Shown: one piece after another, positions 2,341 to 40,241 of the stretch
Numbering within the stretch: position 1 is the stretch's first letter
Layout of the letters: each line of letters opens with the position of its first letter
Assembly (NCBI GenBank): GCA_025360845.1
Contig: JANYBJ010000325.1
Span: 1 to 43,924 of the forward strand
Length of the DNA: 43,924 bases
Source: a bacterium
GTDB lineage: Bacteria > Verrucomicrobiota > Kiritimatiellia > RFP12 > UBA1067
Direction of reading: 5' to 3'
Position numbers and translations under genes: made by a program
The notes under the pieces: model-generated
Databases searched by the model: none
What the model was told of the DNA's origin: nothing
The model's input: the letters and a program-made list of their open reading frames with translations, nothing else

Positions 2341-2363
2341 CGCGGGCTCTCCGAGCACGCACA

Positions 2364-2429
2364 TGGAGGGCGAGTGTCCCCACGAGCCACTGCGCAGTGA
2401 CCGGCGGCTCGACAGAGTCTCGCCCTCCA
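2364..2429. repeat. REP-like inverted repeat between convergent genes
   Basis: TGGAGGGCGAG (2364-2374) and CTCGCCCTCCA (2419-2429) are perfect 11-bp inverted arms, with an inner CGAGCC/GGCTCG pair and a central CTGCGCAGTG palindrome. It lies between the convergent ends of the membrane-protein gene and the large beta-strand-repeat gene, and could terminate transcription from both sides. It has no T-tract, so intrinsic termination is uncertain. Confidence 0.65.
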
Positions 2430-2455
2430 AAAAGTGCAACCGGAACAGGGGCACG

Positions 2456-7096: not shown

Positions 7097-7130
7097 ATCC
7101 AACTTCCTTTCATGTAGGTATAGACCAAGT

Positions 7131-7159
7131 AATATCGTATAAAAGGATAGTACAAACAA
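7131..7159 (-). promoter_or_regulatory. Candidate promoter of the lectin/beta-strand gene
   Basis: On the minus strand, TTGTTT (7154-7159) and GATATT (7131-7136) are separated by 17 bp. The start codon lies about 35 bp downstream. A direct repeat ACTCCGCAA occurs upstream at 7186-7194 and 7203-7211, in register by 17 bp, and could be an activator site. Confidence 0.4.
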
Positions 7160-12135: not shown

Positions 12136-12234
12136 TTCCAGAAGGTCTGGTTGGCACCAACGATTTGGACCCCGTACTATTGCGCCAGGCTTTTAGCTCG
12201 TGAAGTGGAGGCTGTAGCCAAAGGAGAAAAACGG

Positions 12235-13798: not shown

Positions 13799-14323
13799 AT
13801 GGGTAAGAAAGCTAGGATATGTTGGGTTGTCGCGCTACTGGCTGCACGCGCAACCTTGGCGGACGACTTCGCAATCACCGAAGAAGTCGCGACCGGCAGG
13901 TACACGGTTATGGACGGGGTCAAGCCGGTCCTCGTATACAACTTCAGCACCGTGCCCGTGCCCGTCGGCGTCACGGGCCAGTATGCCGTCGCGCGCAGCG
14001 ACTACATCCATCCTCTGTACGGGCCGGACGGCGAGGTGCTGACCAAGGACTACTCGCCGGAACACCCGCACCACCGCGGGCTTTACTGGGCGTGGCCGGA
14101 GGTGACCTGGAAAGGCGAGAAACGGGATCTCCATGCCCTGCAGGGCGTGTTCGCCCGGCCGGTGCGGATCGTTCGCAAGGACGTCACAAACGGATGCGCC
14201 GTGCTCGCAGCCGAGAATGTCTGGAAGTGGGGCGACGCGGAGCCGATCGTCAGGGAGCTGGCGACGATCACGGTTTCGCAGGAGAAAGAAAGAAAAGGAC
14301 GATCACATGAACCCGTCTCTTGA
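13799..14323 (+). pseudogene. PmoA-family (DUF6807) protein, C-terminally truncated
   Basis: The start ATG at 13799 has GGAGG six bases upstream. A Sec signal (KKARICWVVALLAARATLA) precedes DDFAI. The family hallmark HPHHRGLYWAWPEV is present near residue 82, and the N-terminal beta-sandwich reads normally up to ELATITVSQ. The frame then runs into EKERKGRSHEPVS and stops. Family members (PF14100) are usually about 300 residues; this has 174, so roughly the second half is missing. The foreign tail coincides with the ribosome site and start of the next gene, which overlaps by 17 bp. This looks like a deletion that fused the front of this gene to the leader of its neighbour. The product may be non-functional; translational coupling could persist. 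Confidence 0.7.
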
Positions 14324-17183
14324 TCATGAAAAGAAACGTTCGTCGCGGGATGCTTCCACGACGTTACACGCCACGGTGGCGTGCCTCTCCGTATTTGCGG
14401 CGCTGCTTTGCGGCGCTGCGGACGCGCCCGCCGGAAAGGCCGCAGACGACCTGACAGGTTTGCGGGGCCGCTTTGTGGCACCGCCCCAGAGCGCTGGCAC
14501 GGTCACGCTCTTCTGGCTGAACGGCACCCTCACGAAGGAGGGTGTCAGGGCGCAGTTGCAGGCTATGCGCGACCAGTGCGGGTTCGGCGGTGTGGCGCCG
14601 CTGACGCTTCATGCGATGCAGCCGCCGACGCAGCCGGCTTATCTTTCGGACGAGTACTTCGGCATCTATGGCTGCCTTCTCGACACGGCCAAGGAACTCG
14701 GGATGACCGTGGTGTTCTATGACGACTGCGATTTCCCGTCCGGTTCCGCAGGCGAACAGATGCGTGAAAAGCATCCGGAGTCCCTGCTGAAGTACCTGTC
14801 GCGCGGCCAAGCCACCGTGACCGGGCCGGGCGAGGCTGTCATCCCGATGCCGGATGGCGTCCTGATGAGTGTCGTCGCCAAGAATCTCGACGACGGAAAG
14901 AGCCGGGCGGTCACGGGCCAGGCGACCTGGTCCGACGCCCCGTCGCTCTGGGCAGGCACGGGCGTGGGTTTCCGCCAGCCGCCGGAGGAAGCCGCGCTCT
15001 TCGAGTACCTTCGCGTCACAGGCGGCGACGGCAAGGTTCTGCACGAGGAGCGGTTTGCGGGAAGCAACGCGCTCGCGCAGGGATGGAACGACGTGGGCGG
15101 AGCGCGGCTTGAGGCGGCCGGCTTGCGTGCCACGGACTGCCTCCCGATGTGGCGAACCGGCTTGTCACTTCCCGACCGGTTCACACTGGAGACGCGGCTC
15201 ACCATCTTGAACGGCGCCGCCGGTCTGGCTTTTGGCGTGCGCGGGTCGGGCGATCTCTATTTCTGGCAGTGCAACGCGGGAGCCAAGGCGCTTCGCCCGC
15301 ACCGCAGGCAGGGCGGGCAGTATACGCTTCTGCAGGCGGCGGACTTTCCTTTCGAGACGGGCCGCGCCTATGACCTGCGCCTCGCGGTCAACGGGAAAAC
15401 CGTCACGACATGGATTGACGGGCAGCGCGTGGCGGAGCACGCGCTAGCCGGGGAAGGGGCCAAGACGGTGCGCTGGAAAGCGCCTGCGGGACGCTGGGAT
15501 GTCCAGGCCTTCTTGTGCGCCACGGTTTCGGGCACGCGCCTGGTGGACTACCTCGACCCGGCGGCGGTCGGCCAGTTCCTCTCTCTAACCTACGACCCCT
15601 TCTACCGCCGGTTCCCGAAGCATTTCGGCTCCACGATCCAGATGACCTTTTTCGATGACCTGACGGCCATGAACGCGCCTGACTGCCTGCTTTGGACGCC
15701 GTCGTTCCGCGACCGGTTCAGCAAGCGCTTCGGCCGGCCGGCCGACGCTTACTACCCGGCGCTCTGGGAAGACATCGGCCCGGATACGGCTGCGGCGCGC
15801 GTGGCGCTCTACAGCGTGCGCAACGAGATGTTCGCGGCCGGTTATCCCGGAGGGACCGAGGCGTGGTGCGCCAAGCGCGGCGTGAAATCCTCCGGCCATC
15901 CTGCCGGCTCCTACAACGCGAACCCGCTCCAGTCGTCGGGCGACGCGCTGCTGTTCTACAAACACCAGGGCTATCCCCTGACCGACTACATCCATTACTA
16001 CCATCACGGGGTGGACGGCTTCTCCATACCCGCTTCCGCCGCCTACAATTATGACAGCCCCCTCATGGTTTGCGAAATCTACGGCAACTTCCACCAGAAG
16101 CTGCCCAACGACTCGAACATGCTCTACCGTGCGGGCATGGAGTGCTATGCCCGCGGCGTGAACGCCCTGTTGCCGCACGGCACGTGGTGGGATGCGGACA
16201 AGATGGCGATCGTGCCCGAGATCTCCTGGCGCAATCCGGAAATCGGCCCCGAACTGCCGCGCTTCAACCGCTGGGCGGCGCGCTGCGAGACGCTCCTGCG
16301 CGGCGGCCGGCACGTGGCGGACATCGGCATCCTTTATCCGATTGCCGACCTTGAGGCCCGTTACCGCGTGGGCGAGCAAAGCCCGAACTGGGGATACGCG
16401 CCGGTCCCCGGCACCGACTATTTCGAGCTCATGCGCCTGCTCACGGGCGAGGTCCGGCGCGACTTCACGCTGCTACATCCCGAGGTGCTCGACGGGCGCT
16501 GCCGCGCGAAAGGCGCGGAGCTGTTGCTCGACAACAAGGAAAACCGGGAGCGGTTCAAAGTCCTGATTCTCCCCGCCTGCCGGACCGTTTACCTCAGCAA
16601 TCTGAAAAAGGTGAAGCGGTTCTATGACGGCGGCGGACGCGTGGTGGCCACAACCTGCCTGCCGGAGCAATCCGCGGAGTTCGGCGGCGACGAAGAGGTG
16701 CGGCAGCTCACGAAGTCGATGTTCGGTCCGTCCGGCCACGGCGTCTTTGTGGCGAAACCCGATGAGCGCACCCTGAAACAAGCCCTCGACGGACTCGCGC
16801 TGGTCTGGGACGTCCGCGTGGAGAATGCGCCTGAGATTCCCCGCGTGTCCCGCGACGGCAAAGACCCCTACGTCAACCAGTCGGCGCTCAACTCCAATTG
16901 GTACGAGGGCGGCAACCGGCAGTTCGCCTACATCCACAAGGTGAAGGCCGGCGCGGACCTCTATTTCTTCGCAAACTCCAGCGCGCAGCGGGTGACGGCC
17001 GACGTGACCTTGCGCGGCCGGCACGCCCTCGAACTGTGGGACCCGCACACCGGCGCCGTGTCGCCGGTGCCCTGCTCGCACGACCGGGAAGCAAACAGCG
17101 ACATCACCCGCTTCCGGGTGGACTTGGAGCCGTTGAAGTCGGTGTTTTTGGTCTCACCCGGGAGCGTGCCGTCCGAACAGTAA
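14307..17183 (+). CDS. GH106-like glycoside hydrolase (putative alpha-L-rhamnosidase) with inserted lectin-like domain
   Basis: 958 residues from the ATG at 14307 (AAAAGGA seven bases upstream). A signal-type hydrophobic stretch lies at about residues 22-42 (ATVACLSVFAALLCGAADA). The opening FWLNGTLTKEGVRAQLQAM, then CGFGGVAPL and MTVVFYDDCDFPSG, matches the barrel start of family 106 proteins. Later AGMECYARGVNALLPHGTWWD and the C-terminal LWDPHTGAVSPV also fit. Residues about 230-380 form an extra concanavalin-like sandwich (ERFAG...GWNDVGG...FTLETRL...GLAFGVRGSGDLYFW) placed between barrel segments. Predicted role: outer-surface or periplasmic removal of rhamnose or a related deoxysugar. 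Family assignment is from motif likeness only; an unclassified relative of GH106 is possible. Confidence 0.7.
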   Translation: MNPSLDHEKKRSSRDASTTLHATVACLSVFAALLCGAADAPAGKAADDLTGLRGRFVAPPQSAGTVTLFWLNGTLTKEGVRAQLQAMRDQCGFGGVAPLTLHAMQPPTQPAYLSDEYFGIYGCLLDTAKELGMTVVFYDDCDFPSGSAGEQMREKHPESLLKYLSRGQATVTGPGEAVIPMPDGVLMSVVAKNLDDGKSRAVTGQATWSDAPSLWAGTGVGFRQPPEEAALFEYLRVTGGDGKVLHEERFAGSNALAQGWNDVGGARLEAAGLRATDCLPMWRTGLSLPDRFTLETRLTILNGAAGLAFGVRGSGDLYFWQCNAGAKALRPHRRQGGQYTLLQAADFPFETGRAYDLRLAVNGKTVTTWIDGQRVAEHALAGEGAKTVRWKAPAGRWDVQAFLCATVSGTRLVDYLDPAAVGQFLSLTYDPFYRRFPKHFGSTIQMTFFDDLTAMNAPDCLLWTPSFRDRFSKRFGRPADAYYPALWEDIGPDTAAARVALYSVRNEMFAAGYPGGTEAWCAKRGVKSSGHPAGSYNANPLQSSGDALLFYKHQGYPLTDYIHYYHHGVDGFSIPASAAYNYDSPLMVCEIYGNFHQKLPNDSNMLYRAGMECYARGVNALLPHGTWWDADKMAIVPEISWRNPEIGPELPRFNRWAARCETLLRGGRHVADIGILYPIADLEARYRVGEQSPNWGYAPVPGTDYFELMRLLTGEVRRDFTLLHPEVLDGRCRAKGAELLLDNKENRERFKVLILPACRTVYLSNLKKVKRFYDGGGRVVATTCLPEQSAEFGGDEEVRQLTKSMFGPSGHGVFVAKPDERTLKQALDGLALVWDVRVENAPEIPRVSRDGKDPYVNQSALNSNWYEGGNRQFAYIHKVKAGADLYFFANSSAQRVTADVTLRGRHALELWDPHTGAVSPVPCSHDREANSDITRFRVDLEPLKSVFLVSPGSVPSEQ

Positions 17184-17478: not shown

Positions 17479-21758
<4,280 letters not shown>

Positions 21759-21768
21759 CCCGGCGCGA

Positions 21769-23703
21769 TCAGAAAAAGATGATGTTGAGGACGAGGCAGA
21801 CGAGCAGCAGGGCAACGGCTTGGACGCCGGGCCGCATGTACCAGGGCTCGTTTGCCGAGGTGATCTTCGGTGTCAGCGAATAGACCAGGCCCGTCAGTTC
21901 CGCATCGGTCTTGGTCTGCTTCGTGGCCAGCGAAATCCCGGCGGTCAGGGCCAGGCAGGTTAGGAAGGCAAAGGAGGCCAGCCAGAAGTTCTGGGCCATC
22001 TCGCTGGGGAACGACTGGACCACGCCCAGGTAGCCGCCCTTCACGCCGGGGGCGTTCCCCGTCGCCAAGGTCAGGGCGTGGAAGGCGGCCGACGTCGTGG
22101 TGCCCAGCAGCAGGCCCAGGAAGGCGCCCGTCGCCGTGATGCGCTTCCAGAACATGCCGAGCAGGAAGGTCGCGAAGAGGGGCGCGTTGACAAAGCCGAA
22201 CACGAGCTGGATCACATCCATGGCGTTGTTGTAGAGGGCGGCGAAGTAGGCGCAGCCGATGCTGATCAGGATGCCGGCCACCGTGGCCGCCCGGCCCATC
22301 CACATGTAGTGGGCGTCGCCCTTGCCGCGCGCGATATACGCCTGGTAGAGGTCGTAGGTCCAGATGGTGTTGAACGCGGTGACGTTGCCGGCCATGCCGG
22401 ACATGAAGGAGGCCAGCAGCGCGGTCAGCGCCAAGCCGAGCAGCCCGGTCGGGCAGTACCGCTTGATCAGCGAAAGGATCACGCCGTCATAATCGTTCTC
22501 CGCCACGGCGTTCTGAACGCGGCTCTTGATTTCGGCGTCGCTCAGGCCGGGCGCGGCCTTGACAAGTTCGTCCACCTTGGCCGACATCATCTTCAGGCCG
22601 GCGGCCTTGGCGATCTCCCGTGCGGCGGCCTCGCCGGCCAGCCCGCTAGAAGCGGCTTTCTTCACGGCCGGAACGACCTTCTCGTAGGCGGATTCGGCGA
22701 TGGCTCTCGGAGGCAGGCGGTAGCCGTCCTTGCCCGTGAAGGCCAGGCCCGCCGCGATCATGCCGGGCAGGATCACCAGCGCGGGGATCAGCATTTTCGG
22801 AATGGCTCCGATCAGGGGCGTGCGGCGCGCGGCGCTCATGTCCTTGGCCGCCATGGCCCGCTGGACCACGAGGAAGTTGGTACACCAATAACCGAAGGCC
22901 AGCACGAAGCCGAGGCCGAACACCATGGCGAAGAGATCCACGCCCATCGGGTTTGCGGCCGCGCCGTTGAGCATCGGGTTCCAGACCCCCGTCCAGGCGT
23001 CCGGCTGGAAGGCCTTCTCGCCGACACCGATGGAGGCGGGGTTCTGGGCCACGCCGGCGAGCTTCTCCTTCAGCACGCTCCAGCCGCCGACGTCCTTGAG
23101 GCCCAGATAGACCACCGGCGAGAAGCCCAGCACGATCATGAAGAACTGCAGCACCTCCGTGTAGATCGCCGAGGTCAGGCCGCCCTTGAGCACATACACC
23201 AGCACCACGCCCGAGCAGACCCAGAGGCTCACGTGGTAGTTCCACCCGAGGAGCGCATGCAGCAGCTTGGCCAGGGCGTTCATCGAAATGCCCGAGGCGA
23301 AGACGGTCATCACGGCGAACGTGATGGAGTTCAGGCAGCGGACCCGGCCGTCGAAGCGCATGTTCAGGTATTCGGGCACCGAACGCGCCTTCGACCCGTA
23401 GTAGAACGGCATCATGAACACTGCCAGAAAGGTCATGGCGAGGATGGCGCCCATCCAGTAAAAGTGGCAGCTCATCATGCCGTACTTGGCGCCGCTGGCC
23501 GCCATGCCGACCAGTTCCAGCGCGCCCAGGTTCGCCGAGATGAAAGCCAGGCCTGTCACCCACGCGGGTATGGACCGGCCCGACAGGAAGAAGTCGCTGC
23601 TCGACTTCATCTGCTTGCGCAGGGCCTGGCCGATGCCCAGCACGGCCCCGACGTAAATCGCCATGATGCTGTAGTCCATCCATCCCAATGTCACGTTCGG
23701 CAT
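21769..23703 (-). CDS. Sodium:solute symporter (SSS family, SGLT-like)
   Basis: 644 residues, with about 13-14 membrane spans. The N-terminus (DYSIMAIYVGAVLGIG, then SSSDFFLSGRSIPAWVTGLAFISANLGALELVG) and the pattern ALTALLASFMSGMAGNVTAFNTIWTYDLY are typical of the family. It should import a sugar or sugar derivative with sodium. Between the segments near PGMIAAGLAF and YDGVILSLIKRYCP there is an extra soluble, alpha-helical, Lys/Ala-rich stretch of about 80 residues (about 335-415). This is longer than the usual loop. It is last in the minus-strand glycan cluster, separated from the GH31 gene by a MITE-like element. It is the only transporter in the window and so the likely uptake route for the released sugars. 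Confidence 0.92.
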   Translation of the reverse strand: MPNVTLGWMDYSIMAIYVGAVLGIGQALRKQMKSSSDFFLSGRSIPAWVTGLAFISANLGALELVGMAASGAKYGMMSCHFYWMGAILAMTFLAVFMMPFYYGSKARSVPEYLNMRFDGRVRCLNSITFAVMTVFASGISMNALAKLLHALLGWNYHVSLWVCSGVVLVYVLKGGLTSAIYTEVLQFFMIVLGFSPVVYLGLKDVGGWSVLKEKLAGVAQNPASIGVGEKAFQPDAWTGVWNPMLNGAAANPMGVDLFAMVFGLGFVLAFGYWCTNFLVVQRAMAAKDMSAARRTPLIGAIPKMLIPALVILPGMIAAGLAFTGKDGYRLPPRAIAESAYEKVVPAVKKAASSGLAGEAAAREIAKAAGLKMMSAKVDELVKAAPGLSDAEIKSRVQNAVAENDYDGVILSLIKRYCPTGLLGLALTALLASFMSGMAGNVTAFNTIWTYDLYQAYIARGKGDAHYMWMGRAATVAGILISIGCAYFAALYNNAMDVIQLVFGFVNAPLFATFLLGMFWKRITATGAFLGLLLGTTTSAAFHALTLATGNAPGVKGGYLGVVQSFPSEMAQNFWLASFAFLTCLALTAGISLATKQTKTDAELTGLVYSLTPKITSANEPWYMRPGVQAVALLLVCLVLNIIFF

Positions 23704-23807: not shown

Positions 23808-23960
23808 TTACTCATCCCAGCAATTCTAAATATGGCCAAGAAGCGCCTCACGGCGCCACTACAAACGTAAGAAAGCCTAGGGGAATCCGTTTGTAGTGTG
23901 CCCGTAAGGGCATTCTTCCATGGCAAGCAAAGCCATATTTAGAATTGCTGTCACTCATCC
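23808..23960. mobile_element. MITE-like element, copy B, with target-site duplication
   Basis: The element proper is 23818-23950 (133 bp), with perfect 19-bp terminal inverted repeats (CAGCAATTCTAAATATGGC and complement). Flanks TTACTCATCC (23808-23817) and TCACTCATCC (23951-23960) agree at 9 of 10 positions and look like a 10-bp target duplication. The right flank is the last codons and stop codon of the GH31 gene, so the element begins at the base after the stop. A 4-base GCTG also precedes the left flank, so the duplication might be counted as longer. There is no internal coding capacity; nested hairpins are as in copy A (143-267). Confidence 0.8.
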
Positions 23961-26788
23961 ACAAATACCGCCGAGATGACGGCGTTCGCCCCGCCTGTCT
24001 TGCTGACGGAAAAACGGACGTGGCCTTTGACCTCGTAGCGCAGGTACGCCCCGCCGTCGAACTTCTCAAGCCTGCGTGTGTCGTAGACCTCTTCGGTGCG
24101 CGGGTTCAAGGCCGTGACTTGGAGGGACCGCGCGCCTTTGCCGTCCCAGTCCAGAAAGTAGAGCGCAATCTTTTTTGGCTTGTCGCCTTTCACCCCGACA
24201 TCGACGTCAAACTCCGTCCCGAAGTTGCAGGCCGCAATGCGCTCCGCGCCTCCGGGCTTCTGAGGCGCGTTGGGCGTGGCCGCCTTGTCCGCCCACACGC
24301 ACGGACTGCCGCCCAGCCGGACGTACAAGCCCTGGGGCAGATGCGAACCGGCGCCGGCGAGGCTTTGCCCGCCGCCGCCGTAAACGCCGATCCAGTTGCC
24401 CTGGGTGGTGCGGTCTTCACCTTTGAAAGCCAGCGCGGCTTTCGCGTCGAAATCGTCCAGCGGATCAGGTGCCTGGTTGATGAAAAAACCATGCCCGGCA
24501 GAGGCCTGGGCCGGCGGCGCGGCAGGATCGCGCAGGATCTCGACCGTGATCGCGCGCCCGGCATCCGGAGCCTTCACCTGAACCATGAAACAGCCCGTCA
24601 GAGCGTCGGCGAAATATCCCCAGCCTTGAGGCGCGTCCGCCAGTTTCTCCACCGTCTTCGAGGGTTTCAAGTCGTGTCCATCCAACCGCACGGCCGACGG
24701 GAGGGACGGGCAGAGGACTTTGAGCAGTAGCGCGCGGGGCCCGGGATTGAAGCGGCCTTCCCTCGCGCTCACCGTGACGCGCACGGCGGCGTCCGTTTGC
24801 ACACAGCCGATCTGGGTCGTGCAGAAATCGCCGGCCTGATAGCTCCGGGTTTTGCCGTCATCTTCGTAGAGCGTGGTGCTGGACGTGTCTGCGGGATAGA
24901 CCAGCAGCGTCAGCGGGTCCATGGGTTTCTCGTCCATGTATCGCATCGTCGGCATCAGGGGGATGATGGCGCCGGCCTTGACGAAGATGGGATATTCATC
25001 GACGGGCGGTTGGAACGAACCGAGTTTGCAGGGGCCGGTGACTTCTTTTCCGCTGAAGAGATAATGCCACTTCCCTTCCGGCAGATACACAGTGCGGTAC
25101 GCGCTCTCGTATAAGGGCGCCATCAGCAGCCAGTCGCCGACCAGGATCTCGTCGCTGGCATAGGTCGCCGGATCATTCGGATAATCCAGCAGGAGCGCCC
25201 GCCAGCCGGGGACGCCCGTGGTATGTGACTGCCACGCCATGGTGTAGAAATACGGGATCAGACGGTAATGAAGATCGAGAAACTTGCGGAACACGCCCTG
25301 CACCTGCTCCGACCACTCCCACGGCCGATGACAGGGAGTCTGCTTGGGCAGCCATGCGTTGCATTGGCTGATGGGATTGAGGAAGTTCGCTTTCACTCCC
25401 GCAAGAAACGTCGCATCGGACTGGCCAGACAGCGCGGCACCCGCCATGTCATGGGTGGAGTGCGCAACGCCCGCCAGGCCGTTGCAGAGGTTCGCCAGCA
25501 CCGTGGCCCGGCAATAGGGCAGATCTCCCATCCACGGGTAGCCGAACCGCTGGCACCCGGCGTAGCCGCCGCGGGCGCAGAGAAAACCGCGGCGTGAATC
25601 CTGTGCCTCCGTGATCTCCGTCACCGCCTGGTAGAGGCTGAACTGGAAGCGGGGCGCCCACCCGTCGTCGGTCTCGTCGATCCAGAACCAGTCCACGCCG
25701 TTATCGAGCAGGCGGGTTTTGACCAGCGCCTTGAATTTGGCCCAGTCGGCATAAGGCGGGGTGCGCGGCTCGGGCTTGCTGTCCTGGAACGTGCCGGGCG
25801 AGCAGACATCGTAATAGAAGCCGAACAGGCCATTCAACGCGTGGATGCGTCGGCCGGTGGAGGCCACCGCCGCGATCTCCTCAGGCGTCTCGACGCGCTG
25901 GTCGGTGAAGGTGATGCAGGAGTCGATGGGGTAGCCGCGCTTCACCCATTCCGGGAACGCCTCCTCGGTGGTGATCGGCGTGCCCTGGACCAGATACTGG
26001 AACCCCAGAAGTTTTTTCGGCGGCATCGGCGGCTTGCCGGTGATGCCGGTGTACCGGTCGATCCTGCTCCTGAAATCCGCACCGCAGATGAAGAACAGGT
26101 CGAGCTGTCCCTGCTTCGCGGTGTTCTCGATAACGAACGGATCAGTCATGGAGAACCGCACGTTCTTGCTGTCCTCGTTATGGAAGAACAGGGCATAGCC
26201 GGCCGTGCTCATGAGAAAGGGCGCAGACCAGCCGTCGCCGTTCTTGTCCTCAAGGTTGACCGTTTCCCCGCGGCGGTCGAGGGTGGCGGCCGCTCCGCCC
26301 TGGTACTGGAGTCCGAAGAAATGCTCTGCGCGTCCGCAGGCGTCGCGTTTGAAGCAGGCTTTGATGTCTGTGTCAAGCGACTGCCCCGGCGGCAGGGAGG
26401 CCAACACCGTTGTTCCATCGGCTTTGAGGAACTGGATGCCGAACGGCTTCTTTCCGATGCTGACGTTCAGTTCGGCCGTACGGATGACCACACGGTCGGA
26501 CGCATCATCGACCTGCAGCGTCCGCGGCCCTTTGAACTGCGCCAGCCCCGGCTGGATCATGTAGGTGTCGGCCGCGTTGGTGTAGGAGAACTGGCCGTCG
26601 ACGGAGAGCCAGACCCGGACCACGCTGTCGTCCCAGACTTCGAACCGGACCGCGGGCACGCCGCACCGGACAGTGATATTGCGCCCATCCCGGACCACCC
26701 CCGTCACCTCACCGAGCGCCGCAGCCCGGACACTCGCGGCCGCTCCAATGACGACGGCAATAACTAATGAAACATAACGGCACTTCAT
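23951..26788 (-). CDS. GH31 family glycosidase with extra C-terminal beta module
   Basis: 945 residues with a Sec signal (MKCRYVSLVIAVVIGAAASVRA). The galactose-mutarotase-like N-domain (about 25-230) is followed by a barrel. The nucleophile motif is DWFWIDETDDG (D371), and the likely acid/base Asp lies in PWMGDLPYC. HSTHDMAG replaces the usual DIGG segment, so this is a divergent member. Later ILVGDWLLMAPLYE, YLPEGKWHYLFSGK and PIFVKAGAIIPL are characteristic GH31 sequences. Family activities are alpha-glucosidase or alpha-xylosidase; which one is not decided here. Residues about 765-945 form an added module (ALYFLDWDGKGARS, GAYLRYEVKGHVRFSV, GANAVISAVFVD) shared with the protein at 32380-35328. 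The leader GAAAAAGGAAC before the ATG also resembles that gene's leader. Confidence 0.88.
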   Translation of the reverse strand: MKCRYVSLVIAVVIGAAASVRAAALGEVTGVVRDGRNITVRCGVPAVRFEVWDDSVVRVWLSVDGQFSYTNAADTYMIQPGLAQFKGPRTLQVDDASDRVVIRTAELNVSIGKKPFGIQFLKADGTTVLASLPPGQSLDTDIKACFKRDACGRAEHFFGLQYQGGAAATLDRRGETVNLEDKNGDGWSAPFLMSTAGYALFFHNEDSKNVRFSMTDPFVIENTAKQGQLDLFFICGADFRSRIDRYTGITGKPPMPPKKLLGFQYLVQGTPITTEEAFPEWVKRGYPIDSCITFTDQRVETPEEIAAVASTGRRIHALNGLFGFYYDVCSPGTFQDSKPEPRTPPYADWAKFKALVKTRLLDNGVDWFWIDETDDGWAPRFQFSLYQAVTEITEAQDSRRGFLCARGGYAGCQRFGYPWMGDLPYCRATVLANLCNGLAGVAHSTHDMAGAALSGQSDATFLAGVKANFLNPISQCNAWLPKQTPCHRPWEWSEQVQGVFRKFLDLHYRLIPYFYTMAWQSHTTGVPGWRALLLDYPNDPATYASDEILVGDWLLMAPLYESAYRTVYLPEGKWHYLFSGKEVTGPCKLGSFQPPVDEYPIFVKAGAIIPLMPTMRYMDEKPMDPLTLLVYPADTSSTTLYEDDGKTRSYQAGDFCTTQIGCVQTDAAVRVTVSAREGRFNPGPRALLLKVLCPSLPSAVRLDGHDLKPSKTVEKLADAPQGWGYFADALTGCFMVQVKAPDAGRAITVEILRDPAAPPAQASAGHGFFINQAPDPLDDFDAKAALAFKGEDRTTQGNWIGVYGGGGQSLAGAGSHLPQGLYVRLGGSPCVWADKAATPNAPQKPGGAERIAACNFGTEFDVDVGVKGDKPKKIALYFLDWDGKGARSLQVTALNPRTEEVYDTRRLEKFDGGAYLRYEVKGHVRFSVSKTGGANAVISAVFVDE

Positions 26789-27933: not shown

Positions 27934-27938
27934 TTTCG

Positions 27939-29039
27939 TTACGTCCTCCATCTCATCAGCCGTTGCAGGATCGCGTCCTGCTCGGTCTCCTCGGCTGAGA
28001 TGCACAGAAAAATTCCTTCAGGCGCAACCTGCGCCATAAACGGCTCCAGCTCCTGCGGCTTCAGATCCACCACGACGGACTTGCCCGCCGCCTGAATACG
28101 TTGGATCAGCGGCACCCACTGCAGGATGGGCTCATCGTCGCCGACGCCTTGCGCCCATTGTATGGCCGTGATCCCCGGCTCGGACAGCAGGATGTCCAAA
28201 TGGTTCGCCACGCCCTTGCCGTCCATATGAAAGATCACCCGCTCAAGGCCAGCGATCTCCTCCCGCAGCGAGGGCAGGCAGAACTCCTCGAACTGCGGCG
28301 GCGAGATCATGCTCGCAAAGTCCGTCTGGGCGATATGACAGATCCCGTCGAACGGAATGCCCATCCACGAAACGGTCGGCAGCCCCTTGGCCCGGATGCG
28401 CTGGCTGAACTCGTTCAGCAGCGGCTGAAACGGCGGCAGGGACAGGGCCAGCAGACGCTTGACCCGCTCCGGTTCGAGCAGCAGGTCCAGGCACAGGCAC
28501 TCCGAGCCGCGCCAGGCTGCCACGCAGTCGATGCCGGGGCACCAGCTCGTGACCCCGACCAGCGCACGCCCCGCACATTTTTCCAACGCCAGGTCCGTCA
28601 GTTCCCGCAGCTTGCGCAGATACGGGTTGTCCGGATCGAACGCTGGCCGAGCCATTTGCCGGTCGTCCGTGAGGTCGTCGATGATCGGATGGCTCCAGGA
28701 GGTGATCTCGCCGAACTCCAGCTCGCAGCCGAAAAAGGCGGCGTAGATGTCCGGCCCGAGATTCGGCCAGTACACGGGAAAGCTCTCGGCCCGGAACGTG
28801 TGCCCGTCGATCTCCCGCAGAAAAGTATCCACCTGGTACTCGGCATCCAGCCACCGGTCTTTGAGCGATGCCCACCGGCGCGCGTCTTGGCCTTGCGCGC
28901 TCTCGTATTGCGCGTTGTGCTTGGAAAAACGCACGGGCACGCGGTCCAGCACCGCGCCGTGAAACCAGGCCTCCACCCGTTTCATCGCGTCTTCAAATCC
29001 CGGAATGCCCCTCAGTTCAATGGTTGTCTGCACTTGCAT
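27939..29039 (-). CDS. URO-D-fold protein 2
   Basis: 366 residues, almost the same length as its downstream neighbour but only distantly similar. It belongs to the URO-D superfamily by size and by the conserved C-terminal layout IFHMDGKGVANHLDILL followed by AIQWAQGVGDDEPILQW. The HxC zinc pair is replaced by H271-M-D273, so a thiol-type zinc methyltransferase mechanism is not supported. The active site may be metal-free or use a different metal. No signal peptide, so it is cytoplasmic. It is upstream in the operon of URO-D-fold protein 1 and downstream of the NPCBM-bearing glycosidase-like gene, with a hexamer-core repeat in between. Function not assigned. Confidence 0.75.
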   Translation of the reverse strand: MQVQTTIELRGIPGFEDAMKRVEAWFHGAVLDRVPVRFSKHNAQYESAQGQDARRWASLKDRWLDAEYQVDTFLREIDGHTFRAESFPVYWPNLGPDIYAAFFGCELEFGEITSWSHPIIDDLTDDRQMARPAFDPDNPYLRKLRELTDLALEKCAGRALVGVTSWCPGIDCVAAWRGSECLCLDLLLEPERVKRLLALSLPPFQPLLNEFSQRIRAKGLPTVSWMGIPFDGICHIAQTDFASMISPPQFEEFCLPSLREEIAGLERVIFHMDGKGVANHLDILLSEPGITAIQWAQGVGDDEPILQWVPLIQRIQAAGKSVVVDLKPQELEPFMAQVAPEGIFLCISAEETEQDAILQRLMRWRT

Positions 29040-29223: not shown

Positions 29224-32200
29224 TTACTCGGTGATGAACCCCGCGTCGGCCCAGTCGGCGTGATCGGAATCGGGCGCATCGCCCGCATCCCAGATCACGA
29301 GCTGAAGCGTTTTCGTGCCGGCCGGCAGCGGGAGGTCGATCCCCCAGGCGAAGCCCGGCGTCAATTTCGGCGTCTGATACAGGGTCTTCTCCCCGCCCAT
29401 GGCGATGATGTTCGCCTGGCCGCCGGCGGCTTTCGCAGCCTCCTCGTTGCCGGTCACGATCTCGGCCTTGACGATGAAGACCGCCGAGCCGATCGGGCGG
29501 GCCAGGGTCTCGTCGTCGATCCCCACCTGAGCCACGAAGCGCTTCCATTCGGGTTTGACGGCGTACACCAGAGTCGAGTTCGCATGACTGCCCATGCCTC
29601 TCGCGAATTCCTTGCCGCCCAGGCGCAGGGGGTTTCCGGCGGTCGACCGGTCACAACGGTTGGTCCAGCCGGGCTGACACTTCTCCGAAAGCACGGGCAG
29701 GTCGGAGAGACACACGTTCGGCCGGGGCGGCACCGGCGGCACGGCGCGGATGCTGGACGCGCCCGTCTCGCTGGCCTGCCCGTTCCAGAACACCCGCGCC
29801 TTGATCTCGCAGGGTTTCTCCACAACCAGTTGCGCATCCAAAATGGGGGCCTCCGGCGTCGGCTCGGTTCCGTCGCGCGTATAGCGCACCACCGCGCCGG
29901 TCAGTTCCGCCTGATCCGGGATGCGGTGCGTCAACGTCACGGGCTTGTTCAGAAAAGCCATGACAGGGGACAACTCGGGGGCCGGCGGACGGGTCCTGAC
30001 GAACTCCCGCATCAGGATGCCGCTAAGGACACGGCCATCGGCCGCGAACGCCTGCGCCTTGACCAAGGTGTTTTTGGAGAGCTTGAGCGCTCCGGTGCAG
30101 ACCGGCGAATCCTTCGTGGGATCGCGGCCGTCAAGCGTGTAATGGATTTTGGCGTTTTTGAAGCGCGTCTCCAGCACCACGTCGGTTTCCGCCGCGTAGA
30201 AATACCGGCGGGCAGGAAGCATCCGGGTGTGGGAGAGCCGCACCAGAGCACAGCCGCGCGCCAGAGGAACGTCCATAAGAATATCAGCGCCGACCGTTTT
30301 CGAAGGGAGCGGCTTCCAGTCCCAGCCCTTGGCCGGATGTAGCACCTCAGCATCAAACCCGGCCAGCTCTTCCGGACCATTCAGGCCGGCCACCCGCACG
30401 CCTGTCGCGGTCTTGTCCCCGCCCAGGACCACCGGCACCAGATAGCCGCCGGGAATGGAGAACAGGTTCGCCTTGGCCCCCTCTGCCTTTGCCTCCGCTC
30501 CGTCCAACACCCAGGTACGGCCGCTGTAGGCGTCGAAAAGAGGACCGTAATCGAGAGAGAACTGATCCACGTAACCGAAATCCGGCTTGATGTTGTGGTT
30601 GTTGAAAGGGACCGGCGCGGTCTTGAAGGTGCCGAGATAAAGGTTCCACTGGAAGTCGTCGTCGAAACCGACGCCCGCATTCAGCCCGCCCCACTGCACC
30701 AGCGGCTTGCGCAAGGCGAGGAAGGCGTACCGGTTCAGGCCGCTCATGCTGGTGTCCTCGGCATACAGGCCGTCGATGTCCTTGTAAAGGTCGAGCCGAC
30801 AGAAGAGCGGATTGGCATAGGCCACCTTGCCGGCCGGGTGCAGTAAGGCTCCTGCCTTGGCCCAGAACTTCCGCCACCCGTCCGCAAAGGTGGCGCCCGG
30901 CTTGCCGTTGTACCAGGTGATGCCGTCGTCGCCGTGGGTATTGATGAACCAACTGGGCCTGTCCGTCGCCACGCCTGAACTGGAGGGAAAAAGCTCGATA
31001 TGACGCCGTATCTGATCCAGCAAAAACTCGCGGTAGGCGGGGTTGCCCGGATCAAGGAACAGGCCGTTCTCCCAGCAGGGCACCCGTTTGTCATCCCAGA
31101 AAAAGTGCGCGTCGCGCATCTGATACCAGACAAAGTCATTGGCGTCGCGCCACAGGTCTTCGTCGCGGGCCGCTTTGCGCGGCGGCGCGCCGTCCGCTTT
31201 CACATCCAGCCCCACCTCGCCCAGGTTGAAATAATTGAGCACGTGGAACCCGCTCCGTCGCATGCGTTCGGAGTAGTCGCGAAGCTGCCGGAGCGAGGTC
31301 GGCTTCTTCGGACTCTCCGCACCCCAAGCCCGGGCATTCGTCCACTGCCAGTCGAGGTCATCCGTGAGCGGCAGGAACATGCCCATGTAGACATAGTCCA
31401 GGCCGGACTTCCAGTTGAACGTGAAGCCCATCCGCATGTACCGGGGAACATCCAGATCGTCTTCATACTCGGCATAGGCCCCATTGCCGGCCACCTGCCA
31501 CGTGACGGCACTGGGGGGATTGAAGAACGCCGCATACCGGTTCACCATCCAGTTCAGCCCCGGACGCCAGCCCGGCCCATGCGGCACCAGGTGCAGGGTG
31601 AAGCGCAACGGACGGTCCTTCCCGATGCGGCACTGGTAACGGAGAAAAGAGACCGAGCCGTCCTTGCCTGTGCGCAGGTCCAAACTGGGAATCGCGTCGG
31701 CAGGCGATTGAATCAGGCTGAGGCCGCGCTCTTTGTCCATGACCGTCACAAGGGGCACGGTGAATGATTCGGGATGCTGTACACCGCCATATTGTAATTT
31801 CCGGTCGCCGAACGTGGCGGTCTCCAGCGGGTCGCCCCACGCGGGAGTGCCAGTCACCCCCGTGGGATTGCTCCAGGTGGTCCAATGGCGGAGATCCGGT
31901 GTCACCGCGAAACGCAGCGTGCTGTCGATGACGGTACACCAGGACTCCCCGGAACCCGTGATCTCCACCTCCCAGCGGATGCTGTCGCGCTCGGGAATGT
32001 AACGTTCCGTCAGGTGGCACCCCTCCCCGCTTTTCTGACCTCGCAGCTCCCTTTCCACGACTACGGAACCGTCAGCCCCGCCCGACACCATCGGGGCGTC
32101 GGTCTGAGCTGACTCCAGCCGGACACCGCCCTGCGTCAGCCAGGCCGACGCTTTGACTCCGACCAACGCTCCCTCCTGTGTGACGCCGAGGTCTAAACCG

Positions 32201-32352
32201 GGGCACGACACCGTATGTAAGACCTTAATTCCATCATCGGCCTGTGCGCAAGGTACTCCGAGGGACAGCACACCCAATCCAGAACAAAGTCCGCACAGCG
32301 CCGCCGCAGCACCGAGGAACAGCACATATCTGCAATTTTTCGTCGCGCGCAT
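29224..32352 (-). CDS. Unassigned glycosidase-like protein with C-terminal NPCBM domain
   Basis: 1042 residues; signal YVLFLGAAAALCGLCSGLGV near the N-terminus. Order: an N-terminal beta-sandwich (about 40-290), then a barrel-like region with NYFNLGEVG (E379), ATDRPSWF (D464) and THGDDGITW (D475-D476). Next come beta-rich segments with two chitobiase-C-like repeats (KIHYTLDGRDPT and VVRYTRDGTEPT). The end is an NPCBM-type sugar-binding domain (about 885-1040; FARGMGSHANSTLVYAV). I cannot match the barrel to a named family; a GH31/GH36/GH97-like clan member is possible. The same YFN-E-G, DR-W and DDG-T spacing appears in the upstream neighbour (32380-35328), so the two are likely paralogues. 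Part of the minus-strand glycan cluster. Confidence 0.65.
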   Translation of the reverse strand: MRATKNCRYVLFLGAAAALCGLCSGLGVLSLGVPCAQADDGIKVLHTVSCPGLDLGVTQEGALVGVKASAWLTQGGVRLESAQTDAPMVSGGADGSVVVERELRGQKSGEGCHLTERYIPERDSIRWEVEITGSGESWCTVIDSTLRFAVTPDLRHWTTWSNPTGVTGTPAWGDPLETATFGDRKLQYGGVQHPESFTVPLVTVMDKERGLSLIQSPADAIPSLDLRTGKDGSVSFLRYQCRIGKDRPLRFTLHLVPHGPGWRPGLNWMVNRYAAFFNPPSAVTWQVAGNGAYAEYEDDLDVPRYMRMGFTFNWKSGLDYVYMGMFLPLTDDLDWQWTNARAWGAESPKKPTSLRQLRDYSERMRRSGFHVLNYFNLGEVGLDVKADGAPPRKAARDEDLWRDANDFVWYQMRDAHFFWDDKRVPCWENGLFLDPGNPAYREFLLDQIRRHIELFPSSSGVATDRPSWFINTHGDDGITWYNGKPGATFADGWRKFWAKAGALLHPAGKVAYANPLFCRLDLYKDIDGLYAEDTSMSGLNRYAFLALRKPLVQWGGLNAGVGFDDDFQWNLYLGTFKTAPVPFNNHNIKPDFGYVDQFSLDYGPLFDAYSGRTWVLDGAEAKAEGAKANLFSIPGGYLVPVVLGGDKTATGVRVAGLNGPEELAGFDAEVLHPAKGWDWKPLPSKTVGADILMDVPLARGCALVRLSHTRMLPARRYFYAAETDVVLETRFKNAKIHYTLDGRDPTKDSPVCTGALKLSKNTLVKAQAFAADGRVLSGILMREFVRTRPPAPELSPVMAFLNKPVTLTHRIPDQAELTGAVVRYTRDGTEPTPEAPILDAQLVVEKPCEIKARVFWNGQASETGASSIRAVPPVPPRPNVCLSDLPVLSEKCQPGWTNRCDRSTAGNPLRLGGKEFARGMGSHANSTLVYAVKPEWKRFVAQVGIDDETLARPIGSAVFIVKAEIVTGNEEAAKAAGGQANIIAMGGEKTLYQTPKLTPGFAWGIDLPLPAGTKTLQLVIWDAGDAPDSDHADWADAGFITE

Positions 32353-32379
32353 CGCATGGTCCCTAACGTTCTGAACAAC

Positions 32380-35328
32380 TTAATCGATGAACACGCCCGA
32401 AGCCACGGCATTCGCGCCTGCGGTCTTCTTGAGCACGAGGTTGACTTTTCCGGTCACGGTCCACGTCAGGTACACGCCGCCCGCAGCCTCTTGCGTCGAA
32501 ACCGCTTGGGTGCCCAGTGCATTTTCTGTCTCCTGGATGCTGGCTTCCATCATACGGTCGTTTCGGTCAAAGTCCAGCAGATAGACCGTCAGCTTGTAAG
32601 GTTTGCTGTCGGGCGGAGTAACGGCAAACGCGAGGGCGTCCTGCTGATACCAGCAGGTGGCGCTGCGTCCGGAGCCCCCCTCTTTAGGCGCCTCGGGCAC
32701 GCGCGGATCGCCGCTGTTTCCCTGCCAGGTGATCGCCGCGGCGTCGAGCGGCTGCAACCCGTAGCCGTTTTGCGGCTGCTCGTCGCTGACCTGCGGTAGC
32801 CACACCGCCCGCTTGCCGAGCCGGCCCTTCCAGTGTCCGCCCGAAGACGCGTCGCGACTGTCGAACTGCGCCACCGACGGAATGACCTCTTCGGCCGGAC
32901 ACCACGCCAGCGGCAGGACGAGCGAGCCGGCTCCGCCGGCAGAGGCGTCGTCGGGCGTCCAGGTGGCGATGCGGTAGCGCTTGCCGCTGGCCAGCGTGAC
33001 CTGCAGGTCTGCGCGCTGGGGCGCGAACCAAGTCCCCTCGTCCGCGGCTGTCAATTGAATGCGCGGCGGCCGGTCGGGCAACGTATTTCCGGAGGAGAGC
33101 GCCACAGCGAACAGGTTGACCCCGGCTTTCAGGTACACTGACGGAAGGTCATCGATAGCGGCTGACACCAAACCCGGCTCGCCGAGACTCGCGCCGCTAA
33201 GCAGCAGCATGGCCGATTGGATCGCCTCAAGCTTCGGCGGGGTCGCGGCATGGGCCGAGGCCGGGCCCGGCTGCGGGAACAGGCGGTCACGCACGCCGCG
33301 CAACCGTTCCGCATCGGCGAACGGCAGCGGTGGAGGCTGGCCGCGGCCCGCGACGATCATCGAAGCTGAACCGTGCCGGTCGAAGGCGATTTCCGCGCTG
33401 CCCGCCGCATGCGTGACCGCGGCCCAGCAGGGAGGCGCGTCGGCCGAAACGACGTAGGCCCAGGCGAGGTCCGCAGCGTTCGTCACGCTGAGCCGCACCC
33501 GCACCGCCTCCACGGCCTCCGTGCGGCGCGACAGGAACCGCACCCGGGAGGTCACCGGCGACACGTAATGGCCCGCCCGGTTGACGAAGAGGTTCACATC
33601 GTTCGCGCCGGAGACGCTCACGCAGTGCGGCTCGAGCACCTGCTCCTTGCCGTCGAGCAAGTCGAACAGCGGCGCGTAAATCTCCAGCAGGTCTGCGGCG
33701 CGGGCGTCGGGACCTTGCTGGCTGATCGGGAACCGGTGGGCGATCATCTGCGGAAACAGGGCGAACTGCAGCCGCCGCTTCAACTGGGCCTCGAACTTCA
33801 ACAAGTCTCCCGAGTACGGCGCTTGCTTGTTCCACGCCGCGGCCGGCCGGAAGGGCGAGACGTAGCCCAGGGCGCGCACGTGGTCGCTCTCGTGGCAGGT
33901 GCCGTCGTTGTCGCGCAGCACCTCGATCTTCCAGAACTGATTGACGTACACGCGCCACCCGGCGTCATGGGCCTGACGGCAAACCTCGGCCACGCCCTCT
34001 GCCACCGGACCGGCCATGTTTTCAGCAGGCCGGTTACCGATCATGGTCAACCCGTCGTCATGGCCGTAATCGATCACGCTGGCCCAGTCGAGCCGGTCGA
34101 TGATGAAGCCGTCCAGCTTCGGCAGCCGCGCGACGTGCCGACGAACCTGTTCCGACAGGGCCGGGAACAGGGAACAGTCGTGGCGGGCGTTCATCGCCAT
34201 CGCCCCCTCCCACGTTTCAACGGGCCGGCCCTCGGCGTCCTTGATCAAGGCGTTGGAGAACTGCTCGCGGAGGATGCGCCCCGCCGTCTCCGTGTCGCCG
34301 CTCCGCCCGCCCTTTCCGCCGTATTCCGTGACGTTAAAGTAGGCGTACACCCCGATTTTCTGCGCATGCATCTCGGCGGTGAACGCATTGATCTTCTCGT
34401 CGCTCATGGGCTCTTTGAGCTTCCACCAACTGGCATAGCTGTACGGCTCCCACTGCGGCGCGTCGGGCAGATACTCGCCGAGGTGGGTGAACCAGAAACT
34501 GGTCCAGATATAGCGGATGTTCTGCCGCGCCATTTCATCAAAGCCGGGGTGATCCTGGATGTGGTGATACCAGAAAGCCCCTTCGTAGGTTCCGCGCGGC
34601 TGAGCCGGCCGGAAGTAGCGGGGGAAGTCGTCGCTGTACGCCTTGATCGCCGCGCGGTAGTCGGCCGGATGCGTGTAGAAGAGCAGACGCAACGCAGACG
34701 GCTTGGCGCCGCCCATTCCCCGGCGCCCCAGCCGAAGCCGCAGCGTGGTTGCGTTCTGCCAATCAACTTGCAGATGCGGCGTGTTGGCGTCGGCAGGCAC
34801 GGCGACCGTCAGCGCCGTGTCCGCCAGCGGGTCCAGCACAGAAACCAGAGGCAGCACATAACATCGCCCGTCGCCCCAGCCCACCGTCCCATACGGCACC
34901 GGTTCAAACGTCGGGTAGGCCGACAGCGCCATGACGCCCCGTTCGCTGGGCGTGAACACCTGCCGCTGCCCGGTCAACACCGGAAACGCGATGGACACTT
35001 CATGCGCCGCGCGCGGCCCCTGCCCCGTGAACGTCAAGTCCCACGCCATGCCGCGTTCGGTCGCGGAAAAACGCTCGGCCACGGACAACCCTAAAGCATC
35101 GAGTGTGTGTGCGGGTGATGCTGAAGCGGCGGGCAGCGCAGTCGGTTTCACTTCAAAGGAGGCCGTCTTGCCGTCAACCTCGTTGCGGACCTCCACCCGC
35201 ACCGGCCCCTGCAGCCATTGCTGTAGGGACGGCGTGGCGCGGGGACCCGCAGTCGTTTCGCCCCCTGCGACACATACGATCACCAGACTCATCACCAGCC
35301 CATACAGGCCCGCATCGTAGACTTTCAT
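32380..35328 (-). CDS. Unassigned glycosidase-like protein with shared C-terminal beta module
   Basis: 982 residues from the ATG at 35328, preceded by AAAAAGGAAC. The frame is open to 35520, but the first 64 residues lie over a repeat and have no signal. The signal segment is YGLVMSLVIVCVAGG. N-terminal sandwich, then a barrel-like region containing TSFWFTHLGEY, YFNVTEYG (E335), IIDRLDW (D411, D414) and GHDDGLT (D424-D425). The motif order and spacing match the 29224-32352 protein. The final 190 residues or so (KLTVYLLDFDRNDRM, GVYLTWTVTGKVNL, GANAVASGVFID) match the end of the GH31 protein. Export and neighbours support polysaccharide breakdown; the linkage is unknown. Only 27 bp separate it from the next gene, so the two are co-transcribed. 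Confidence 0.65.
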   Translation of the reverse strand: MKVYDAGLYGLVMSLVIVCVAGGETTAGPRATPSLQQWLQGPVRVEVRNEVDGKTASFEVKPTALPAASASPAHTLDALGLSVAERFSATERGMAWDLTFTGQGPRAAHEVSIAFPVLTGQRQVFTPSERGVMALSAYPTFEPVPYGTVGWGDGRCYVLPLVSVLDPLADTALTVAVPADANTPHLQVDWQNATTLRLRLGRRGMGGAKPSALRLLFYTHPADYRAAIKAYSDDFPRYFRPAQPRGTYEGAFWYHHIQDHPGFDEMARQNIRYIWTSFWFTHLGEYLPDAPQWEPYSYASWWKLKEPMSDEKINAFTAEMHAQKIGVYAYFNVTEYGGKGGRSGDTETAGRILREQFSNALIKDAEGRPVETWEGAMAMNARHDCSLFPALSEQVRRHVARLPKLDGFIIDRLDWASVIDYGHDDGLTMIGNRPAENMAGPVAEGVAEVCRQAHDAGWRVYVNQFWKIEVLRDNDGTCHESDHVRALGYVSPFRPAAAWNKQAPYSGDLLKFEAQLKRRLQFALFPQMIAHRFPISQQGPDARAADLLEIYAPLFDLLDGKEQVLEPHCVSVSGANDVNLFVNRAGHYVSPVTSRVRFLSRRTEAVEAVRVRLSVTNAADLAWAYVVSADAPPCWAAVTHAAGSAEIAFDRHGSASMIVAGRGQPPPLPFADAERLRGVRDRLFPQPGPASAHAATPPKLEAIQSAMLLLSGASLGEPGLVSAAIDDLPSVYLKAGVNLFAVALSSGNTLPDRPPRIQLTAADEGTWFAPQRADLQVTLASGKRYRIATWTPDDASAGGAGSLVLPLAWCPAEEVIPSVAQFDSRDASSGGHWKGRLGKRAVWLPQVSDEQPQNGYGLQPLDAAAITWQGNSGDPRVPEAPKEGGSGRSATCWYQQDALAFAVTPPDSKPYKLTVYLLDFDRNDRMMEASIQETENALGTQAVSTQEAAGGVYLTWTVTGKVNLVLKKTAGANAVASGVFID

Positions 35329-35430
35329 GACCGATGTTCCTTTTTCATATGCAAGCCCGCCCTCACGGAGTTCCGGGAGCAAACGGATGGGTAACTTTTT
35401 CAACGAATTAAACGAAGGGTTCGAATGCAT

Positions 35431-35484
35431 GGTAGGGACGGCTCGCCGAGCCGTCCGCGGCGGTTTCGGCGAAACCGCCCTACC
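35431..35484. repeat. Cruciform REP-like unit
   Basis: Outer arms GGTAGGG / CCCTACC enclose two perfect hairpins, ACGGCTCGCCGAGCCGT and CGGTTTCGGCGAAACCG, joined by CCGCGG. The arrangement matches 13697-13773. It lies in the 257-bp gap between the LamG-repeat gene and the next enzyme gene, where it could end or attenuate transcription or protect mRNA ends. Confidence 0.75.
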
Positions 35485-35585
35485 GGTTTCAACATGGCTT
35501 ACGTGCGACAAAATGGCCAAGTTATAAGGTAAGCCTCTCTTTTCAGCTCGTACGTTCTCTCCATGAACTCCGCATCGCGCTCACC

Positions 35586-39107: not shown

Positions 39108-39329
39108 GGATGCCCTTGCCTTTCTGTGCGGTGTTGCCACACAAAACGAAGTCGTTTTGCACTCGCAGAGCGTTGCTCCGTTTTTTCCGATAGTCGTCAC
39201 ATTCTCACAATGTTGACCGCCACAAAAGAACATTTGAGGTTCAAGATGTGACTAGTATGGTCATTTTGTGACACCTGATTTATGGGTTTCGCATTTCTAT
39301 CATTCCGGCATTATGCTATCTTACCCGCG
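39108..39329. promoter_or_regulatory. Divergent regulatory region of the LamG gene and araC-type gene
   Basis: AT-rich by local standards. The inverted pair GTCACAT (39196-39202) / ATGTGAC (39246-39252) and related CACAA/TTGTG words (39206, 39221, 39266) are candidate regulator sites. Possible plus-strand promoters are TTGAGG-N16-TATGGT (39234-39261) and TTCGCA-N18-TATGCT (39288-39317). Both are weak matches. Confidence 0.35.
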
Positions 39330-40241
39330 ATGGTCAAAGGCCACACATACGCGGAACTCTCGGATAAACGGGTGTTCGACGCCCTGGACGCGGCGCGCAT
39401 CTGGGATCTCAAGCGGCACGGCTGGCGCGTGCATGCCACGGGCGGCAGTCAACATGTGATCGGCGACACCACGTACTGGTGGCACGGCGAGGAGCGCGGC
39501 GGCAACCCGGCGCACCCGTTCGTCATCGTGCAGTTCACACTGTCGGGGTGGGGCTGTTTCGAGCAGGAGGGCACCTGCCACCGGATCGGCGCCGGTAACG
39601 GGTTTATCGCTCTCGTGCCTTCCGACCATATCTATTACCTGCCCGAAGCCTCGCCGGACTGGCGCTTCATCTGGCTCGACGTCTGGCACCCCTACGCCGT
39701 CGCGCGCCTGACCGCCCTGAGCGATCAGATCGGCCCCCGCCTCACCGTCGCTCCGGAGTCGGCGGTGATGCAGCGCATGATCGACATCCTGGAGCGGCTG
39801 GCGTTCGGACGCTATCCCGACGACTACGTGCTGGAGGAGGAGGTGCTGGGGTTCTCCGTCGCGCTGGAGCGGCACATGATGCAGCATCGCTATCCGACCG
39901 CCGAACGTGACGCGTGGCTGCAGGAAATCCGTGACCTGACTCTGGCCAGGCTCGCCGACCCGCCGTCGGTCGAAGAGCTGGCCCGCCATTACCGGCAGAG
40001 CCGCACCCAGTTCAGCCACCTGTTCAAACGCGCGACGGGGCTCGCGCCCGCGGAGTTTGTCGACTCGGTCCGCCTCTCTTCGGGCGCAGGCCTGCTGGAG
40101 AGCGGCACCGGAAAGCTGGAGGTCATCGCGCGGGCCACCGGCTACCGCTCGGCCACCCAGTTCTGCAAGGCCTTCCGCAAGGTCTACGCGCTCACGCCGG
40201 GCGCCTACCGCGCCTACTACGGACGGCACGAACCCGCGTGA
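39330..40241 (+). CDS. AraC-family transcriptional regulator
   Basis: 303 residues from the ATG at 39330; an in-frame ATG at 39282 would add 16 residues coded by AT-rich, promoter-like DNA. Neither start has a ribosome site. The N-terminal cupin-like sensor domain (about 25-125) carries YWWHGEERGG, IVQFTLSGWG and GFIALVPSDH. The C-terminal pair of helix-turn-helix motifs (about 205-300) reads SVEELARHYRQSRTQFSHLFKRATG then VIARATGYRSATQFCKAFRKVYALTPGAYR (family-typical FCKAFRK end). It is divergent from the minus-strand glycan cluster by about 220 bp, so it is the likely local activator, responding to a sugar ligand (inference). GLAPAEFVDSVRL links the two motifs. Confidence 0.9.
   Translation: MVKGHTYAELSDKRVFDALDAARIWDLKRHGWRVHATGGSQHVIGDTTYWWHGEERGGNPAHPFVIVQFTLSGWGCFEQEGTCHRIGAGNGFIALVPSDHIYYLPEASPDWRFIWLDVWHPYAVARLTALSDQIGPRLTVAPESAVMQRMIDILERLAFGRYPDDYVLEEEVLGFSVALERHMMQHRYPTAERDAWLQEIRDLTLARLADPPSVEELARHYRQSRTQFSHLFKRATGLAPAEFVDSVRLSSGAGLLESGTGKLEVIARATGYRSATQFCKAFRKVYALTPGAYRAYYGRHEPA

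Follow-up and report, generated by a model that had tools for sequence, protein, structure and literature searches.

Two adjacent genes, P0001 and P0002, in the 43,924 nucleotide stretch of DNA analysed here (the window) probably encode secreted retaining alpha-glycosidases of a single uncatalogued family with a GH151-like Asp/Glu pair, the two being old paralogues that share one locus. Sequence comparisons indicate that the family is real, rare, glycosidase-like, and outside the Pfam and NCBIfam models. Both proteins are probably secreted, and catalysis, alpha specificity, and a shared substrate are predicted for them.

P0001 is an open frame of 1042 aa (29224..32352, minus strand) and P0002 is 982 aa from its ATG (32380..35328, minus strand). 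The two frames are on the same strand, where the original prediction had placed them, with 27 bp between them. A longer frame from a TTG (32380-35520, minus strand) encloses P0002 and adds 64 codons 5' of the ATG, but these upstream codons are mostly dispersed repeat and the ATG at 35328, the start originally chosen, is therefore the better one. The TTG start was dropped, the first ~58 residues from it being a dispersed genomic repeat that is also present in other contigs. This repeat occupies 35329-35585 of the window, between P0002 and a PATR/LamG gene. Several other contigs have about 170 bp of it at 86-96% identity, with 45 matches in total, and its core of about 54 bp matches on both strands. 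Residues of P0001 are numbered here from its ATG and those of P0002 from the TTG frame, from which 64 is subtracted to give the ATG numbering.

AlphaFold models were made of P0001 and P0002, with window proteins and related loci from the collection scan as the only input. In both models an N-terminal beta-sandwich is followed by a (beta/alpha)8 barrel and then by a C-terminal beta domain. The model of P0001 (m0703b3ee4693; pLDDT 73, pTM 0.83) is moderate and is weakest in an insert after beta3; that of P0002 (m2142f9e12898) has pLDDT 87.5 and pTM 0.90. The barrel is placed at about residues 290-609 of P0001 (30526..31485, minus strand) and about residues 316-620 of the TTG frame of P0002 (33661..34575, minus strand). 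Beyond this three-domain core the proteins carry different add-ons, as was originally noted. The domain search finds CHB_HEX_C_1/Fn3_assoc chitobiase-like repeats in P0001 from about residue 719, then an NPCBM/NEW2 module at residues 880-1039 (29236..29715, minus strand; PF08305, 4.7e-27). P0002 ends instead in a C-terminal beta module (32383..32916, minus strand), its residues 869-1046 matching the C-terminus of the GH31 gene of the same locus (23957-24481; 1e-12, 30% identity). This unnamed module is shared at 30-42% identity by P0002, the GH31 protein, and, in a different genome, a GH36/GH31-like protein (L026 1486-3465).

The homology of P0001 and P0002 is well beyond chance by sequence, with a BLASTP match of 2e-19 at 23% identity across ~550 aa and an hhalign match of P0002 to the P0001 clade of 99.5% (6e-23, 518 columns), so the diverged but homologous pair that had been proposed is borne out. 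Pfam and NCBIfam recognise solely the add-ons of P0001, the repeats and the NPCBM module, and have no match to the core of either protein, nor was there a match to either core in a sequence search of the PDB. As these domain collections are silent on both cores, the family was built from relatives, giving a set of 41 non-redundant sequences from PVC bacteria, Omnitrophota, and Armatimonadota. Single-protein searches of 289 genomes of the phylum gave matches in 17 for P0001, several of which concern the add-on modules only, and in 13 for P0002, while the family profile matches 23 of 388 genomes. A scan of the collection with a core-only alignment found 32 loci, in Lentisphaeria, Kiritimatiellae, Omnitrophota, Ratteibacteria, Armatimonadota, and Planctomycetota; no relative was found in the plasmid collection. 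The genomes that both searches have in common suggest a bacterium of the Kiritimatiellae class as the source of the window. In profile comparison the P0001 clade matches the core members at 3e-50 and P0002 matches them at 2e-46, and on these alignments the family itself is secure.

Seven residues are invariant in 41/41 sequences, in P0001 numbering R263, G289, Y374, G460, D464, N514, and E532. The motifs named in the original prediction are all present in both proteins, with spacings of 85 and 76 residues and then of 11 and 13 residues in P0001 and P0002 respectively, but their acidic residues are not equally conserved across the family. D464 is invariant, D476 (D425 of P0002 from the ATG) is conserved in 40/41, and the position of E379 is acidic in 41/41 but may be E or D; D475 (D424 of P0002 from the ATG) is not conserved. 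The motifs also overlooked the likely acid/base, an invariant Glu at beta6 (E532 in P0001, E480 from the ATG in P0002). In the models, which were compared by strand-end positions, the conserved acids of both folds are at the C-terminal ends of equivalent barrel strands. The proposed nucleophiles, D464 of P0001 (30961..30963, minus strand) and D475 of P0002 (D411 from the ATG; 34096..34098, minus strand), end beta4. The invariant Asn, N514 of P0001 (30811..30813, minus strand) and N527 of P0002 (33940..33942, minus strand), comes at the end of beta5. The proposed acid/bases, E532 of P0001 (30757..30759, minus strand) and E544 of P0002 (33889..33891, minus strand), are at the end of beta6 in the first case and just after it in the second. 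An acid is found just after beta3, E379 of P0001 (31216..31218, minus strand) and E399 of P0002 (E335 from the ATG; 34324..34326, minus strand).

From conservation and the models, the catalytic pair is probably D464 and E532, and not E379 combined with either D464 or D475-D476. E379 with D464 or D475 was discarded as the pair, since the acid at the acid/base position that is invariant is E532. Some other scheme, with D464 and D476 as the pair, E379 as acid/base, or an arrangement like that of GH101/GH129, would be consistent with the conservation of D476 and of the acid after beta3 and with the presence of GH129 and GH101 among the fold matches; it is nevertheless improbable, given that beta4 and beta6 end in no invariant acids other than D464 and E532 and that both of these align with conserved acids of GHL6. 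The retention of every invariant acid in both proteins likewise makes it very unlikely that one of them, or both, descends from a glycosidase but binds carbohydrate without catalysis, a reading that would fit with the long branch of P0002 and with a diverged beta2 loop that is without the His residues of the core members.

The nearest catalogued active site appears to be that of the alpha-L-fucosidases of GH151, a family which is represented in Pfam solely by the 'hypothetical' GHL6 model. The profile of the whole family matches GHL6 across the barrel (hhalign 97.6%, 4e-12, 189 columns); the positive control, GHL6 against GH29, gives 97.8%. In this alignment D464 and E532 coincide with a conserved Asp and with Glu E240 (local numbering) of GHL6, so that the Asp ending beta4 and the Glu ending beta6 are found in both, and the beta3 Tyr and beta5 Asn align as well. 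The best PDB sequence match of the family profile is 6tvk, the GH151 enzyme ALfuk2 (E 0.001), where D464 falls on chain residue 183. This residue would be D154 of ALfuk2 if 29 residues are subtracted, as the lengths of the 689-residue construct and the roughly 660-residue protein suggest, and E532 sits at the spacing of GH151 E235 from the nucleophile. In ALfuk2, D154 was assigned as nucleophile and E235 as acid/base from mutagenesis, structure, docking, and QM/MM (PMC10154630). Mfuc3, which belongs to GHL6 and acts on pNP-fucose (PMC4723247), has been reassigned to GH151 (PMC10154630).

The likeness does not extend to the whole protein. GH151 has its barrel first, then a Rossmann-like domain, then a C-terminal beta domain (PMC10154630), whereas the models of P0001 and P0002 start with a beta-sandwich that precedes the barrel and finish with a beta domain. 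The near-invariant R7, H10, D12, H14, H50, and H51 of GHL6 (local numbering) have no invariant counterpart in the family. Neither protein reaches the 35 bit cut-off of Pfam GHL6 (PF14871), for which the best relative scores 2.9e-5, and in profile comparison with GHL6 neither the P0001 clade (20%) nor P0002 (3%) gives a significant match by itself. Taken alone in profile comparison, the two proteins reach neither GHL6 nor DUF6259, and on these scores the relationship to both is carried by the wider family, not by the window proteins alone.

DUF6259 (PF19773), an uncharacterised Pfam family, matches the family profile over sandwich and barrel (hhalign 97.1%, 5e-11, 356 columns), with the same beta-sandwich-then-barrel order and an aligned beta4 Asp. 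Its invariant Glu, E412 (17/17), is about 50 residues past the Asp, near beta5, whereas the family of P0001 and P0002 carries Asn on beta5 and its Glu on beta6. As DUF6259 is without the beta6 Glu, membership fails; P0001 and P0002 are also without a match at the Pfam cut-off of 28.7 bits. The invariant Asp and Glu of DUF6259 itself (L001, L071-L085), 50 residues apart, suggest a beta4/beta5 catalytic pair there; a literature search found no mention of DUF6259. The barrel originally described as unassigned and glycosidase-like is thus outside Pfam and NCBIfam but is not an orphan fold, its profile being related to GHL6/GH151 and DUF6259.

In a Foldseek comparison of folds with the PDB, P0001 best matches FpGalNase and GH36 enzymes, and P0002 best matches FpGalNase, GH31, GH66, GH129, and GH36, mostly with TM-scores of 0.4-0.6 at 8-14% identity. 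All of these whole-core matches (FpGalNase, GH36, GH31, GH66, GH129) are to alpha-acting enzymes. The GH36/alpha-galactosidase-like group, including FpGalNase, shares the beta4 Asp with the family and matches it over the whole core at a TM of about 0.5-0.6, and the domain order of GH36 (clan GH-D), beta-sandwich then (beta/alpha)8 barrel then C-terminal beta domain, recurs in both models. The acid/base of GH36 is Asp, whereas a Glu is found at the beta6 site in 41/41 members of the family; identity is 8-13%, there is no Melibiase profile match in P0001 or P0002, and hhalign of the family profile gives 0.3%. The GH66 dextranases, whose catalytic residues are an Asp/Glu pair, also match by Foldseek, and two relatives match PF13199 (best 0.00095), but the window proteins do not and hhalign with the catalytic barrel gives 3.7%. 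GH36 and GH66 were both rejected as parent families, there being no profile similarity despite the good fold matches. The GH29 alpha-L-fucosidases share the beta4 Asp and have a weak barrel match that is not significant (hhalign 51%, 1.5e-4); they are without the N-terminal sandwich, and P0001 and P0002 have no Pfam match to GH29 (PF01120), for which there are 12 separate matches in the genome.

CAZy gains families quicker than Pfam, as the 'hypothetical' label still carried by the model for GH151 illustrates, and P0001 and P0002 might belong to a CAZy family that is already numbered but has no Pfam or NCBIfam model. This is rather unlikely, as neither core is matched by Pfam or NCBIfam and the top PDB match of the family profile is only 6tvk at E 0.001.

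P0001 and P0002 were originally read as a tandem duplication that had diversified on one glycan while exchanging accessory domains, and they are indeed adjacent, 27 bp apart, co-oriented, and homologous, with add-ons that differ. In the tree, the sister of P0001 is instead a gene that the same genome carries on a different contig, C186 (support 100/98, identity 41%). This gene likewise ends in an NPCBM-type C-terminus, and the next relatives of these two are genes from two other families of the phylum. Constraining P0001 and P0002 to be sisters is rejected by the AU test (delta lnL 58.7, p-AU 8e-5), and their mutual identity is low, only about 20%. Tandem duplication is accordingly highly improbable, and the phylogeny shows that P0001 and P0002 are old paralogues of separate ancestry that were brought together, not duplicated in place. 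A clade of the P0001 group with P0002 has support of 98/98 but unites long branches, and the exact position of P0002 is unsure because its own branch is long.

The two genes most likely sit in a polysaccharide-utilisation locus. A minus-strand run headed by a divergent AraC-type regulator (39282..40241, plus strand) contains the PATR/LamG protein, P0002, P0001, two URO-D-like proteins, a GH31 glycosidase with the P0002-type C-terminal module (23951..26788, minus strand; domain search and sequence match), and a sodium:solute symporter (21769..23703, minus strand; PF00474). A GH2 beta-galactosidase-like protein with F5/8 type C (17943..21758, plus strand; domain search) and a GH106 alpha-L-rhamnosidase-like protein (14133..17183, plus strand; PF17132, 3.7e-18) are nearby. 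The protein at the head of the run (35586-39233 of the window, minus strand) is 1215 aa long and combines three LamG domains with repeats of the PATR autotransporter type. The URO-D-like genes (26836-29039, minus strand) overlap each other and lie between the glycosidases, and three URO-D genes are also found among the neighbours in related loci. A 1567-aa frame at 2456-7159 (minus strand) has a legume-lectin-type domain and a PATR repeat; two long frames on the plus strand, 2363-5989 and 6188-7117, are probably antisense to it. The locus is flanked by a 3-keto-disaccharide hydrolase-type protein (40461-41609, plus strand) and a Gfo/Idh oxidoreductase (12151-13662, plus strand); a 3-keto-glycoside route could operate here beside ordinary hydrolysis. 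An Rfam search of the window gave no match. A glycan-utilisation context is seen in related loci as well as in this one: the C186 paralogue has genes for an AraC regulator, a GH99-like protein, and a sugar transporter beside it, a relative in G365 has acetylesterases and a GH36 next to it, and the neighbours in the wider family include GH20, GH29, GH95, GH116, GH123-type, and DUF6259 proteins.

At beta2 most core members have the motif ExHxHFPxYGxYxP, which aligns weakly with the HH-G motif of GH29, while the P0001 clade has D(Y/F)xYMGMFxP and P0002 has FWFTHLGEYLP. As ExHxHFP is absent from both P0001 and P0002, their substrate, or even their activity, may differ from that of the core members, and the three groups (core, P0001 clade, and P0002) probably act on different sugars. 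In the proposed mechanism, the Asp at the end of beta4 (D464/D475) would attack the sugar, the Glu at the end of beta6 (E532/E544) would be the acid/base as in GH151, and the beta5 Asn and the E/D after beta3 would hold the substrate, within a barrel preceded by an N-terminal beta-sandwich and followed by a beta domain as in GH36 and GH31. With pockets that are predicted to differ in their beta2 loops and add-on modules that differ as well, P0001 and P0002 would work side by side in the AraC-headed locus with GH31, GH2, GH106, and the symporter, and would probably strip different residues off one plant or algal polysaccharide.

There is about an even chance that this is a new GH family, in which a GH151-type site, Asp at beta4 and Glu at beta6, is set on a DUF6259/GH36-type sandwich-plus-barrel chassis, sparse in PVC bacteria, Omnitrophota, and Armatimonadota, with subfamilies that differ in sugar, two of which are in the window. 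The family would be a sequence bridge that joins the fucosidase side (GH29, GH151, and GHL6) to DUF6259 and, by fold, to GH36 and GH31 on the sandwich-plus-barrel side. Bacteria of the Kiritimatiellae and Lentisphaeria type have many uncatalogued glycan-degrading genes, and two of these become directly testable once their family is defined and its catalytic pair predicted.
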